Source of the DNA: Holothuria scabra
Lineage: Eukaryota > Echinodermata > Holothuroidea > Aspidochirotida > Holothuriidae
DNA length: 64,000 bases
NCBI GenBank assembly: GCA_037179385.1
Contig: CM074188.1
Coordinates: 24,197,318-24,261,317, forward strand
Reading direction: 5' to 3'
Part shown: positions 33,701 to 59,263 of the stretch, one piece after another
Position numbering within the stretch: position 1 is the first letter of the stretch
How the letters are laid out: the number at the start of each line of letters is the position of its first letter
The notes under the pieces: generated by a model
Told to the model about the DNA's origin: nothing
Databases searched by the model: none
What the model saw: only the letters and a program-made list of their open reading frames with translations
Translations under genes and position numbers: made by a program

Positions 33701-36700
33701 TTTTGTATTTGAGAGTATGGGGGTGAACATACATACTTATTTGAAAATGGAGGGTGGCTCAGGACAGTACCTACTGTACCTTTCTAGCTCTCAATTATGT
33801 ACAGGAATCTTGAGCAAGAATTTAGTTTTCATACAGGGGTGTATGTGAAAGAGAAAAGAATCAATTCTACACAGTGTGGTGTACACCTAGCTTCCATTCA
33901 AATCCAACCAGTATTTCTCAAAATATCTGAAACTGAATTCACTAGATTTCTTTTCCAAAGTGATCTTGAAGGCTGCAAAGGTTACATTACTTCCTCACAT
34001 TTAATAAGAAATGCTTTGTTTCCCTGTTTTTTCAGATGGTTGTGCTGACCTTGAAGTTAATAGGGATAGGACCTCGGACCAGAGGGGAATGTTTGTAAAG
34101 TTCTTATGGAAGGAAATTTCAGCAGATTGCCTAGAGTACCCCTCTAACATATCAAATCTTGATTTGAGCTTGCAGTAGAACCTTCCTTTGAAATTAATAA
34201 ATACCTCCACTTTTAAGTCTGTAGTCATCATCAGCAAGAAGTTTAGGTTCATACTTGATCTGCTCTGTATGTTCGAGCCTCCTATTTATTTCCCTCTGGA
34301 GACTGCGTGGAGCATTTTGACCAACAGGATAATGAGCACCTCTTCTTGAGCGAAGTGTGACTCTTGATATTTGCCTCTTGGCAAAAACTGAGAGGGAGAA
34401 CAATGTCTAAAAGTGCAAAGAAAAGAAAGAAACCAAGAATGAAAAGGAAACTTTTACCACACTATTTGTCTTTTCGCAACAGGATACATTAACCAAATGC
34501 AGCACCTCTGCAGCTCTCTCTACTGTACCTATCAACAGAGTTGTTATCTCAACATTAATCTTCAGTTATAAGCATACCAGCTAAAGATTAGTCCCCACTG
34601 ACCACAACTTCCTGACCAACAAGTTGCCAGAGTCAGTTACTATTATTGTTTGAGAGATTGGGTATGTACCACTGCACAACCTTTCAGAATAACCATTCCA
34701 ATTGTATTTAGCCAAAAAAACTCACTGAAACAGCTGAACAATAGGATTTTGAGTTTCTAGAAGGTGTAGCATTTCAGTAATGGACATCGTAGCAGCATTT
34801 TAATTTGACTAAATCTTTCAAGTGGGTAATATGGAACTGAAGGGCATTACCTTGTTGAACATCTGAGCAACCTCATCCATACCAGTTGACAATGACCACC
34901 ACAAAATGGATGATAAGGAGCAATGCTAAAACTGTATGCCTCCTAGTTGCCAAGTCCATAGTCAGGTAATTTACACTGGAAGGGCTACCATTTTGACCTC
35001 ACCGGAAATTAGGTTCCCAGACTAAACTTTTTTGTGCATGGGGAACGTGAACAAGAGATGGAAAATGTGCGGATCAGAAAACCCAGCAAACATGTATGCT
35101 GTGCCAATTCCCCTAGCCATCCTACGAAAAAAAACTTGCACAAAGCATTGGTGCAGCCTTTACCTCCAGCATACCACAGGCAATCTCAGCATATACATAC
35201 ACTATACAGTGTAAATGACATCACAGTGGTGTCATGAGCTTGTGTGCACTTTGCACATTGTTTTTAATTTTCTCTTGATGTTAATGACGTCACAATAATG
35301 TCGGTCATTGAGCTTGTGTGCTCATTGTGTGTTGTTTTGATTTTCTCTTTTATTTCAGCCCATGTACCGTATATTCTGTAATAAACGCCCCCCCTCTAAT
35401 AAACGCCCCCCCTTAAAATTTTTAAGAACCACGGAGCCCGAGGCCTCCTCCCGCTACAGGACCAAACCACAGATTAAGCCTAATGTTAACGCTACAACAG
35501 TAGCCTAATGTTAAAAACAGTTTACCTTTTCACATGAAGATCCATACACGGCACGCTGGTTTTAGAAACACAAAATTAACAATCGTCACAATTCGCAATG
35601 AAAGTTCCAAAATAAACACAGCTTGTATACAGTGTAGTTTGATCCGCACAGTACTTTCCAAAACACATAACAAAATGTCAATCACAGTTCAAGATACTTT
35701 CCAATAACATGCACTATCGTTTTCACACAGGGTGATTTACGCACACACGTACGTAACTTTTACTTCCATTGCTAGGGCTATTGTATTGACATGTTCCACG
35801 AGGTAGCTCATTGCTGGTGTCTTCAGACACGTGACTGATACTATGCTACATATTTGGTGGCCTGGGAATTGACGATTAGATCAGAATTGGCTGGATCAAT
35901 GCACTACTATCTAATGCAGCTGTCAAGTTTAGAACTGGTAGACTCTGAAAACTTTGGTAACTTCAAACTCTTCAACAACTTGTTATAAACATTAAAACTT
36001 TGACAACTTTGAAACTTGATGGAAACAAAATTGTACAAAATAAAGACCACTTTCAGTCTGGGCCTCTCACGGTGCTCTTTAGTGCCCTGGGCTGTCGTAC
36101 GCATCGTATTCATCACTTCCCGTTTCGCTATCATCGCTGTTATCCTCGCTACTGCTTTCTTCCAGGGTTACAGGGGCAGCTGAAGCGACAGATCGATAAA
36201 TCTCTTCCTCTGCCTCAATGTCATCGACGTCAAAGCCTTCGAATGGATCATCGTCGTCGTCACTCTGGTTGAACAATTCATCCTCTGTCCCATCTAGAGC
36301 ATTTGTGATGCCGCACTTTTTGAAGCTTTTGCGGATGATTTCGGGTGTGATAGCTGCCCATGACTCCTTTATCCACTCCAATATTAGTTTCTTACTGGGC
36401 GCTTTTCTGTTGCCATATGACGTCATTTCTATTGGTCCGCCAAACAACCACTCATCATACAGTTCAGACATTTTCGATTTGAAGGGCCTGTTCCATGAAA
36501 CGTCAGCAGGCTGAAGTTTAGAAGTGCAGCCACCTGGTATGACACACATATCGGTATTGTAGGTTGTTCGCACTTGCTCTTTTATTTCAGGTGTCAAGTG
36601 TCCTTTGAAGGAATCCCAAACAAGCATCCTCCTTTTGCTGTTATTTCGGCCCCACAATGCTCTGAGCCAATACTTCACACTGACTTCATCAGCCCAACTT

Positions 36701-39700
36701 TTCTTCCCAGAACCACACATATACACAACGATCCCAGTTGGTATTTCCTCTTTTTGCGGAGGTCTTACACCAGGCAAACGCACAAGTGGAGAAATTTTCG
36801 ACCCGTCTGCAAAAGCTCCCAAAGTGACGGTGATAAGCTTCTTTTCATGGCCTGTGCTGGACATTGTAACATCCTTTTCTCCACTATGGTGCAGGGTAGA
36901 CTTCCCTGGCATCTCAAGCCAGACGGGGGTTTCATCCATGTTCCCTATCTCTGCATCGTTGTAACCATGCATTTTTCTCAGTCTAATTGCATATTTGAGA
37001 AACTTATCTATTCTGTCATCGGTGACAGCTTTGTCATGCTGTGAAACATGGGTGGAACGTCGCATTGTGATGTTATGACGCTTTTTGAAGGATGCAAACC
37101 ATCCAGATGAGGCTTTAAAGCTTTGATTGCCCCCTTGTTTATGCAAGCAAAGAGCTTCATATCGAAGTGCCTTGCCTGTGACTCTCACACCAGCTTGCCT
37201 CTCTCATTGAACCATGTAATCAATTTTTCCTCAATGTCTTGGTGTCTTACTTTTCTTCCACCTCCTGCTAATCTTTTGGCTTTGTTGCTGATTTCCCTTA
37301 GTTGGTTTTTATTTTTACACCATTCCCGCACACGTTTCCTGTCAATGCCAAATATTTTTGCTGCACTATGTTTTCCATTCTTTTCCGCATGATCAACAAC
37401 TTTAAGTTTAAATCCTGCAGAATATGCCCTATGTTTAACCATTTTGAGTCTCAGAAAACATTAAAATGCCTAACCGAACTTACTGTTTTGTATGTTTAGA
37501 AGAAATAAAAATGAAATAAACTATGATACATTTAAATATGCCGCGCAAGTTACGTTAATCCCGGTACACACAGGCACGACTACCAAGGACTCTCCGACGT
37601 AGACAATTTGCATAAATCGTAGACACTTCTTTGGTAGTCATGGCCGTATGACCCGGAATTAAAATGCACCGATTGCATCCAACTAATTACAATTAACTAA
37701 AAACAATTACATGTTCAATCCGACCGACAGCTTACGTTACGATGGAACAAGGTGTTTCTTGATTGATTGTTGCCATTGTATTGTATCGATTGTATTCTTT
37801 TTTCGGGTTAGGGATTAGGTACTCGAGCTATCGTTAGCCAGTAAGGAAATTTTTTGTTTAACTCTAGTGGTGAAATTGGCCACACCGCCAGGACTACAGG
37901 TGACCCGACGTTTGTTGACATGGCAATGTGTACCGGCCTTACAAAGTTCTGCAACTCCCAGGTCAGCCTTTTATAATATGCAGCTATCGGGCCCGTTCCA
38001 TTTTACACAGGGCTAATAAACTGTATTGTAGCCGCGTGCTTTTATGAGGTAAAATTCAAAATCAATTATTCCGAAGTTCCTGCAAAAATAAGAACAAGAG
38101 ACTTTGTCATTTTTATAAGTACATAACTTTATTGCCCCATGCTTCTATTCAATGAAGGACTATGATTTTATCACCTAAAATGACTCAATCATTAACTGGA
38201 TCTGACCAGACCATTTTGTGAACGTAACTTAAAACATTTTGGCGCGCCCGGTCAAACACACGTAAGGCTCTCAAGCCCGGGCGGGAAAGCCACAGTAACA
38301 GCTACTGCAGCTGTATGTGCACAGTTCAGTTCATCACGCAGACCAGACTATTGCACCACAATGCACACAATTATGTAGTTTACAGTACGTAATAACGTAG
38401 CGTACATTGGTGCAGGCCTTAGTTGTACGTACACGAATTGTCAAAGTATGCATGTACGTAAATTAGGGTCTCATCTAAACCTAAAGATGGCGACAACATC
38501 GGAAATATTTACATTTGAGCTAAAGAGCGCAGTTCGCGGATATCATGTGTACAAAGACGTTTGGGAGCCATTCGAAGGAGAAAAGCTTGAGACTATACGA
38601 GAATTGGGAAATATGATGGACAAATTTGCAGTGGCAGTTGTAAAAGGCGAAACAGTGGTTGGTCATTTACCAAGGGAGAGGTCAAAAGTTTGTTGGTTTT
38701 TTATTCAAAACAAAGGGACTGTAACAGCCACAGTAGTTACGGGGAAACGTCAATACTGCAAGGAAGCCAGAGGATTTGAGGTCCCCTGCAGGTTAACTTT
38801 CACCAGTACATCTAAAAAACTCATAGACCGTTTGAAGACACTTGTGTAGGTTCTAGCGGTAAGTTACTTTTTTATTAAAATATACCCTCAAATAAACGCC
38901 CCCCTTTTCAGAAATGTAACGCCCCCGGGGGCGTTTATTACAGAATATACGGTAATTTGAAGTGATTTATTGTTTTTGACTTTTAATTGTTACCTGATTG
39001 TGAAGTTGATTAGACGTAAGACCACTAAAAAGATTCATGTGAGTATATTGCCCATGATTTTGCAAAGTAAAAGTAAGAATAATCAATTGCTGATTAAATA
39101 TAATGAAACAATTGTAATATTTTGTAATTGTTAAGTGATTTTTAATAAGTGTTTATTCTCTGTTATTCCTATTTTCATTAATTATATTGTTAATGTTTCT
39201 TCATTCAGTCACCAGACAGACATAACCTTAATGATTTGAGGATATTAGTTGTGGACACAGTGTCAGATATTAAAGATTTATTGGTTTGAAGTGGACCACC
39301 TATGTTATGGAAAAAATTTGATGAATAGAGAAATTATCTGTGAAGAATGTTTTTTTGACGGTTTTAAAATAAATTCCAGCATCCGAGGAATTTACATGCT
39401 GTACATACAGTATGTAGGTTAGAGGTTCAGTGACAGCACAATTGCACATGGAACAACTTAAAATCGGAAAAAGATGAGCGGGGATTTCATTAAATACTGC
39501 CGAAGTGCACAGATGGAAAACAAGGCCGTTTGGCTTTGGTTAGGTTCGACTGCCGAAGCTGCTTGGTTAATATAATAACCCTTCTACTTTATTGATCATT
39601 GAAGAGATTATGAAGTGACTAATAACAGCAAATGGTGTCATTCTCTGAAAGTAGTATCTAAAAATAACCTTTTTTTAAAAAAAAATAGGCAATACCCATT

Positions 39701-48125: not shown

Positions 48126-51100
48126 TCATAAATAAGACTTTATAAAATCGATAGCATCGTTTCTCATTTTTGCACCTAAATCAAATTCTAACATACCACC
48201 TCCTAACCAAAATATGCCGTGGACGCCCGATTCGTAATTTATCCACTTAGTCTCCACACCAGCCGTTTTTAAAGCTGACCAATAGAATATACCGTCATCA
48301 CGCAATGAGTCGAAGCCACATGTTTGTATAAAAGTCGGAGGAAGACCTCTGAAGTCACTCCTTATAAATGGAAAAACCCGCGGATCCGTGATAACGTTTT
48401 TGATTTCTTGCCAAGCATCTTCATCTCCGTGATTTTGTGTGTCTGGTCCAGAGTAAAATAATGGGTCTCTTAAGGATTCTGGTATCAAGGAATGATTTAA
48501 AATATCCCAAACTTGAGAGTTCGTCTTAAATTCAATAGAAGTGTGGTTGTTTTCTTGATAGTTCCTTTCAAAAAACGGATTAGACTTTCCAAAAATAGCA
48601 CAACTCTGAAATCTCGCATTCTTTGCAATAGGTAAGATGCCATAATTGCCAAAGAAATGTTGATATTTTTGATACGACGGGGTTTTCAGATCAAGATGTT
48701 GAAGAATTGGATAGACTAATAATTGTACTATGGGATCTGGGATGCTTCGGTCATCGTGGATATGGTGGGTGACCACTGCAGACAGATGTCCACCTGCGCT
48801 ATCTCCCCCAATACCAATCCTTGTTGGGTGTACTCCATAGTCTCTGGCATGAGAGATGAACCATCTTGTTGACTTGAAAGCGTCTTCAAATTGACTGGGG
48901 ACAGTATACTCAGGACATAAGCGATACCTGTAAAACATATACCCAATGCAAAAATTATTTAGTAGTTTCAAAGCTCTACTCTTGATTATATTTGTAAGGA
49001 AATGAATATGGATATGATACGTCGAATAAAATCCGTGACTGACTTTGGGTGTGTTAGTAAAGACTGTAAATGAGATTTTATGGCTAATTGGTTTAATTCG
49101 GACAAGCCACGGTCTTTTTTCCAGTTGTGAATCATTGGCTTGTTTTTCCTACTCCATTGCTTATGCTGAGTACCAAGAACATTAATTGCAGTAGTACAGG
49201 TTCCATTTTGAATGTCCTCGGTATGACTTTGCTTGTGGATGCTACATTACCGCGTTGATTGTTACGCTGTGCACTGTGACAGAGCGAAATAGAAAATCAT
49301 CCAAAGCTCCAAAATGCGAACAGGAATGTTTTGAAAAACACGCTAGGGCTATTCAAACGCTTCAGGGTCCTGTGCCTAGTGAAATGTTACTTACATAAAC
49401 CTCAGGTATGACGTTACATCACGGGACTTCAAACGAGACAATGTGAGAAATGTTTACAAGCAATGCGTCTTGGGAATGAGTCAAAGGTGAAATGGAACCT
49501 ATAGGAATCCGAACAGATTGTGATGGTCTGATTTTAGTCGGCCATTACTGGGGTCCATCACCTTTAATCTTTAAATTTCCATCCTTACCTGTTCCATGGA
49601 TGTTTGTACACTGAAGTGTATCTTAACTTTCTCAACTTCACTGAATATGAGGATTTAAAATTCACGCAGACAATAAATGAAGACGACTAAAGGCTGATGG
49701 ACCCCACTAATGGCTGCCTACAGTCACTAAAACAAGCGCTTGTCGGATTCGTCTATATCTTATGGGCAGCCTCTACCTTGGTGACCAAAGATATTATAAA
49801 CGTAGATACCAAACTCCTATCCCTGCACTGTTAGACGTGTTGACTCCTCACGATACGAAGACTCAATAGGAGGGCGGAGGTATTCATTTGACATGCACAC
49901 AGTTCTATTCGGTTATCTGCGTGCAGAATTTCGCATGCGTAACAGAAAATTCCATTGTGACGAGATGTCAGCGTGCGTGCTTTATCAAAGCAAAGTTCTG
50001 TACGCGCACAATGCATTTTCCGTGTGCAGTCCGGAGTAATTGACGCGTACTTCCGCGTGCTTGGAAAAAGAACGCAGTAGTTGATTTTGTGTTGTGAGCG
50101 CGTAAGAATGTAAGCGCGTGCATAGATGTGCGCCACGGTGAAGAAAGCATAGAAACTGACCAATCAGTAAGTCAATGGACTTCAAACCAGTCGTTGTGCG
50201 TTAATGTTCAAATGTTCTTCAGTAGAAAGCCTCAGAGAAGCCTGAAACTGTTTCTTGCAAGTAAAATTTATTGAAGAAAGGTGTTTGCAAGAATTGCAAT
50301 GTTTTAAAATTAAACGTATTTATACTACCGAAAGATATCAATTAAGTACTAGCTTTCAAAACGACTGAACAGGTATCAGCACTTCCGCCCCTCCGTCGGC
50401 CTCCATGAGGAGTCACCGCGCCATTGTAAGTTTGGTATATGTTTGTAATATCTTTATTGGTGACAGTCTAGCCTGACATAGGTCTATTGACTTTGACAAG
50501 TTGCAATGCAGGTAATAACAGTGCAGGGACAATAGGCCTAGACTTCGCCGAGTATGCACACACAGGGGAAAAGATGGTCATAGTACATATGACCACTCAG
50601 CCACAAGTGACGACTTCCGCGTACGGCGCCAATATAGATTCCGAACGCGCGCCGTGGGTTTATCCGACCGCGGTGCACAAACCAGATGCCTGGTCGCACA
50701 AACCAGATGCCATCACCTAATCTGGCTACATCTGCTAACTTTTTGCATAGTCTTACCACAAAGTAAGAACAGAAAAGATTTTCGTAAGCCGTATTCTATC
50801 CATATCAGCTCTAGTCGTCTCATGCTGGGAACGCGTTTATTCATTTGAAACCCATTAATTCCAATCTGAAGTCAGAAACATAAGGTAAGAAAGCGGAAAG
50901 CGAATTCGTACGAATAAATAAGACATTCGACTCTTAATCCTCGAAAAAGAAGAAGAAAAAAAAAAACACGAGAGTCAACGTATATATTTTTAGTATGGCA
51001 CTAATGGGCTTTCGCAATATCATGTGAATGAATCGACGAAAGAAGTGAGACAAAAAGAGTGAGTACATACTCGACAGAGACAACTACAGCATGTAGTCCA

Positions 51101-57959: not shown

Positions 57960-59258
<1,299 letters not shown>

Positions 59259-59263
59259 CCTAG

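Follow-up and report, generated by a model that had tools for sequence, protein, structure and literature searches.

A pogo-type transposon of Holothuria scabra carrying a transposase gene and a stand-alone HIRAN gene

The stretch of DNA analyzed here, referred to as the window, consists of 64,000 nucleotides from Holothuria scabra and holds one copy of a young cut-and-paste transposon of the pogo superfamily encoding a DDxD transposase together with a stand-alone HIRAN protein. That this is a two-gene element, with both genes inherited together, can be stated with high confidence. The HIRAN gene reads as an inherited and selectively kept part of the element, not as a passenger of the window copy, because it is represented in all loci with a closely related transposase and is conserved between the two families, A and B, of these loci. 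Unless another locus or contig is named, positions refer to the window, which lies on contig C10 of a host genome of 1.19 Gb in 31 contigs.

Element ends and gene arrangement

The element proper spans 35367-38952 (3,586 bp) and is bounded by perfect 26-bp terminal inverted repeats (TIRs) inside a TA duplication. The sequence TACCGTATATTCTGTAATAAACGCCCCC at 35365-35392 comprises the TA and the 26-bp TIR, and its perfect reverse complement lies at 38927-38954. Searches with this 28-mer, allowing up to three mismatches, returned two matches in the window versus none in 100 shuffles, and 396 + 389 matches genome-wide versus 0 + 0 for a reversed-pattern control. The perfect 26-bp termini and the TA duplication described in a first-pass annotation of this DNA were thus recovered, with both ends matching as reverse complements; the element start given there, 35368, was one base late. 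The TA target-site duplication is present at the window element and at two further copies, L013 and L050, and was seen too at the right/left ends of L049 and L051. Within the termini, the transposase gene (-) and the HIRAN gene (+) lie head to head, 1,044 bp apart, and the TIR motif recurs just inside either end:

35365..35366, left TA target-site duplication
35367..35392 (+), left 26-bp TIR, perfect reverse complement of the right TIR
35394..35410 (+), subterminal repeat of the TIR motif, AATAAACGCCCCC, inverted-repeat pair; candidate transposase binding site
36079..37203 (-), frame of 374 codons for the C-terminal part of the transposase, carrying the domains HTH_Tnp_Tc5 and DDE_1
37185..37442 (-), frame of 85 codons for the N-terminal part of the transposase, carrying a BrkDBD-like helix-turn-helix (HTH)
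37443..38486, intergenic region of 1,044 bp between the head-to-head genes, holding an imperfect inverted repeat (37555-37589 / 37628-37662); putative two-way promoter
38487..38849 (+), HIRAN gene, open frame of 120 amino acids plus stop
38890..38904 (+), subterminal repeat of the TIR motif close to the right end, inverted-repeat pair
38927..38952 (-), right 26-bp TIR
38953..38954, right TA target-site duplication

By every feature tested, that is the TA, the short TIRs, the HTH/Tc5-type domain and the DDE_1 domain, the element is classified as pogo type. In the transposase of L013, the HTH and CENP-B/Tc5-type DNA-binding domain was matched by PF03221 (62 bits, cut-off 22.2) and PF09607 (37.7 bits, cut-off 23.4), and the DDE_1 domain by PF03184 (61.4 bits versus a cut-off of 22). 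Residues D170, D277 and D314, which we take to be the DDxD catalytic triad, are invariant in all 25 alignment rows, with 36 residues separating the last two. In the window copy the transposase frame is interrupted near 37185-37203, which leaves two frames that overlap (37442-37185 and 37203-36079); L013 and L050 carry the gene as a single frame of 454 codons, and the C-terminal frame of the window shares 98% amino acid identity with the L013 copy. Thus, the pogo/Tigger-type DDE transposase and intact HIRAN frame of the first-pass annotation stand as regards the domains and the HIRAN frame, but the transposase of the window copy is not intact. A pogo transposase with 60% identity (P0010) is filed under a bacterial metagenome bin, Sedimenticola, on a contig of 3,054 bases that is probably animal host DNA.

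Copies and families of the element

Copies were sought genome-wide with both proteins. Scores were obtained for 150 of 601 HIRAN candidates and for all 54 transposase candidates, of which 23 rows at E <= 1e-10 represented 14 loci. Eleven of these 14 loci are close relatives, seven belonging to family A (the window, L013, L049, L050, L051 and the more decayed L061 and L059) and four to family B (L052, L053, L058 and L060). In ten of the eleven the HIRAN gene adjoins the transposase gene head to head, a point raised by the first-pass annotation, which had asked whether both frames recur in full-length copies. In the remaining locus, L059, one internal deletion removed the 5' part of the transposase gene, the intergenic region and most of the HIRAN gene; since HIRAN codons 98-120 remain beside the right end, this copy is counted as derived from a two-gene element, and all eleven close loci therefore have this origin.

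Among the scored HIRAN rows, those of the window, L013 (C5), L049 (C15), L050 (C21) and L051 (C9) share 92-100% identity over 120 residues with no stop codon. The HIRAN frame is open in all five of these least-decayed family-A copies and the transposase frame in two (L013 and L050); of the four family-B copies, two (L052 and L053) have a full-length open HIRAN frame, and an open transposase frame of 454 codons occurs in L013 and L050 only. The other three transposase loci are only 24% identical and have no scored HIRAN row within 50 kb. These distant open frames of 391-713 amino acids (C1:52112862, C13:18190952 and C17:3975965) perhaps represent other pogo families or domesticated genes.

The two families differ in their TIRs (TACCGTATATTCTGTAATAAACGCCCCC in A versus TACCGTATTTACTCTATTAAACGCCCC in B) and substantially in their proteins, with identities of 56-69% for the transposase, depending on the stretch, and of 47-50% for HIRAN stretches covering most of the protein. 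In nucleotide comparisons of A versus B by blastn, the transposase gene and the ends align but the HIRAN gene does not. The four family-B elements share gene order and orientation with family A, which speaks against the HIRAN gene being an insertion in its own right with borders apart from those of the element, a finding that the first-pass annotation had named as a possible refutation. In each family the intergenic region has imperfect inverted repeats directly ahead of the point where the transposase gene starts (window 37555-37662; L058:2891-3139). In a HIRAN tree of 117 rows, families A and B and the database proteins P0205, P0236 and P0239 (120 amino acids each) form one group (100/87); the lineage is therefore not confined to family A of this genome. 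The HIRAN protein P0212 and the related pogo transposase P0062 are probably such a pair in another genome, and no relatives of the element were found in collections of viral and genome contigs, which do not comprise animal genomes.

Most of the sampled copies with the same termini carry neither gene. From 100 exact places listed of the 785 ends, all on contigs C1-C7, 40 intervals with exact TIRs were sampled, and 39 of them match neither protein at E <= 1, the single match being L013. The idea that HIRAN is present in most TIR-bearing copies was consequently rejected. The 39 gene-less copies measure 0.35-2.9 kb, most of them about 1.6 kb, and share with the window element only about 90 and 115-125 terminal bases. 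They appear to be non-autonomous derivatives and not transposase-only autonomous elements, since the transposase is also absent and the copies are short. The first-pass annotation had named copies with these termini and no HIRAN as evidence against a two-gene lineage; taken literally, 39 of 40 intervals are of this kind, but they lack the transposase as well, and the lineage stands.

HIRAN fragments also occur in deletion derivatives. About five-sixths of the 150 scored HIRAN rows match, as judged by eye, only residues about 9-67 and are not intact genes. The two inspected members of this class, L054:2272-3120 (C3) and L055:2448-3297 (C11), are TIR-bounded family-B derivatives of about 850 bp in which the intergenic region is retained and HIRAN codons 1-67 lead directly into the TIR; L056, a 468-bp family-B derivative, holds the second half of HIRAN, and L057:301-799 (C3), also of family B, is a TIR-bounded copy of 499 bp with a nearly complete HIRAN frame of 114 amino acids and no transposase. 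The L055 copy (L055:2430-3312) lies within a tandem repeat of the unit ACCTA; it has a TA on either side, and its empty site is visible by eye.

Two further open frames were observed in the window. The frame at 58462-59259 (-), which follows a long TA-rich repeat, presumably resembles the GIY-YIG endonuclease of Penelope-like elements, and the 340-amino-acid frame at 48126-49148 (-), with a GDSAGG motif, is assumed by us to resemble an arylacetamide deacetylase/lipase exon.

The HIRAN protein and its possible role

The Pfam comparison proposed in the first-pass annotation matched the 120-residue window protein to PF08797 with 23.3 bits (E 5.6e-5), slightly below the curated cut-off of 24.7; the L013 protein scored 20.7, also below it, and that of family-B L052 scored 28.2, above it. 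All 16 members of the HIRAN alignment matched PF08797 at E <= 0.001. The frame holds HIRAN alone, with no ATPase, RING or other domain. It has the HIRAN beta-barrel fold, the nearest solved folds being the DNA-end-binding HIRANs of HLTF/Rad5; when the single protein was compared directly with PDB sequences, no match was obtained at E <= 10. A protein search returned 1,197 HIRAN relatives at E <= 0.01, and two of the 120 listed were named Amphimedon queenslandica. Short HIRAN proteins with the motif VRGYHVYK.VW form a large family from eukaryote-like sources. According to passages of PMC11237066, what the HLTF HIRAN binds in single-stranded DNA is the 3' end, and an isolated HLTF HIRAN fragment (1-180) inhibited both the displacement of Cas9 by HLTF from DNA that it had cut and the resection of Cas9 breaks, inhibition being much weaker with the N90A-N91A form. 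The HLTF pocket and the 90/91 mutation are also described in parts of PMC4666394, where N90 and Y93 belong to the DNA-contact set. In the HIRAN alignment assembled here, N42, D45 and H60 are invariant.

Selection was examined by comparing L013 with L052. By the Nei-Gojobori method, the proportions of synonymous (pS) and non-synonymous (pN) differences were 0.912 and 0.312 for HIRAN (117 codons) and 0.872 and 0.248 for the transposase (266 codons, up to the point where the L052 frame breaks), at synonymous sites that are saturated, for which a proper dN/dS cannot be given. The synonymous excess in both genes is read as a mark of purifying selection and, together with the origin of all eleven close loci from two-gene elements, it upholds the two-gene pogo lineage of the first-pass annotation. 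The substitution comparison suggested there came out in favor of constraint on both genes between the families, but not for HIRAN within family A.

In transposition of the Tc1/mariner type, the transposase cleaves both DNA strands, and the resulting 3'-OH ends attack the target. By analogy with HLTF, it is about an even call that the HIRAN protein acts on DNA ends during transposition; the roles put forward in the first-pass annotation, namely assistance to excision, strand protection or repair, or host targeting, are likewise conjectural. Cleavage of both ends by the transposase would leave 3'-OH strands exposed at the donor gap as well as on the element released from it. The HIRAN protein would then bind these 3' ends and shield the post-cleavage complex against being stripped or processed. 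Such protection would most plausibly work by taking up the site otherwise open to host HIRAN translocases of the HLTF/Rad5 type, although a mode of action specifically through the exclusion of host HLTF/Rad5 is put forward tentatively. Equally speculative is the fuller version, in which the element HIRAN would be a decoy of the host broken-end sensor: capping the 3' ends within complexes of transposase and DNA, it would exclude HLTF/Rad5-type translocases, so that cut ends would not be stripped, resected or repaired before reinsertion.

Besides the saturation, several observations weigh against a selectively kept, end-binding HIRAN. Binding of 3'-OH ends is not assured because HLTF N90 and Y93 are not kept, their equivalents being G41 and M44. 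Within family A, HIRAN differences are few and mostly non-synonymous (5 to 1 between the window and L013, compared with 8 to 3 for the transposase), and on this short time scale constraint is not visible, the few changes pointing if anything away from it; family-A copies differ at only 0.67-2.40% of all bases (3.45-4.07% versus L061), and most of these changes may thus postdate insertion. An apparent tendency of HIRAN frames to outlast transposase frames was rejected as a signal, as it is not significant given the much shorter HIRAN. Additionally, there are hundreds of TIR-bearing copies with neither gene, and movement in trans therefore requires no HIRAN in cis.

The main rival, somewhat unlikely in our assessment, is that the HIRAN protein is an element-encoded regulator that would bind the termini or the 1-kb intergenic region and tune transposase expression or assembly, with no role at 3' ends. 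Accessory DNA-binding proteins act as regulators in other DNA transposons, the head-to-head genes share an intergenic region with an imperfect inverted repeat, family-B L058 likewise has one directly upstream of the transposase, and the HLTF pocket is only partly kept; however, the nearest solved folds bind DNA ends, and the three invariant residues point the same way. A host-facing factor unrelated to DNA ends, which might alter chromatin or replication-fork handling and favor copy gain in S phase, seems less likely again: HIRAN domains are found in the fork-remodelling HLTF and Rad5, but here the protein has 120 amino acids and none of the accompanying domains. A passenger origin, with one capture of a host HIRAN gene that has since been carried without use, is very improbable. 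The mostly non-synonymous differences within family A would suit such a passenger, but in A and B alike the gene keeps its place and its frame despite saturated synonymous sites and belongs to the ancestry of every close transposase locus; a single capture of a host gene by the TIRs was rejected on the evidence of both families. An artefact, that is an unrelated chance frame or a separate insertion in the window copy alone, has no observation in its favor, merits practically no credence and was rejected, as both genes occur together in further family-A and -B copies.

Significance and comparison with known systems

Pogo and other Tc1/mariner-type elements are, to our knowledge, usually thought to need a transposase only. 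In the literature searched, by titles and some passages, no HIRAN-bearing transposon is described and no HIRAN accessory gene is described for pogo; libraries of the Repbase type lay outside this search, and an uncurated entry may exist there. A term look-up in two pogo surveys of 2020 (PMC7325037 and PMC7386202) returned no "HIRAN" and no second open reading frame given for pogo. If the conserved HIRAN gene handles ends, some pogo/Tc1/mariner-type elements would bring their own end-handling factor. The element offers a direct way to study by experiment how transposons of the cut-and-paste kind contend with host repair after excision, and would supply a small, natural HIRAN-only protein for testing against HLTF/Rad5.

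With the pogo superfamily (Tigger/pogo, Tc1/mariner-like) the element has in common the TA duplication, short TIRs, an HTH and Tc5/CENP-B-type domain, DDE_1 and three invariant aspartates, and it differs by its second, conserved gene. TBE and Tec of ciliates, as given in part of PMC7325037, are Tc1/mariner-type elements that likewise encode more than a transposase. The repair translocases HLTF and Rad5 carry an SNF2 ATPase and a RING fused to their HIRAN, and the element protein is without both; compared with their HIRAN, the element version is stand-alone at 120 amino acids, transposon-encoded and does not keep N90/Y93. A phage-like HIRAN is mentioned in a passage of PMC7785012, and the stand-alone HIRAN proteins of phages and animal genomes resemble that of the element in consisting of HIRAN alone or nearly so.
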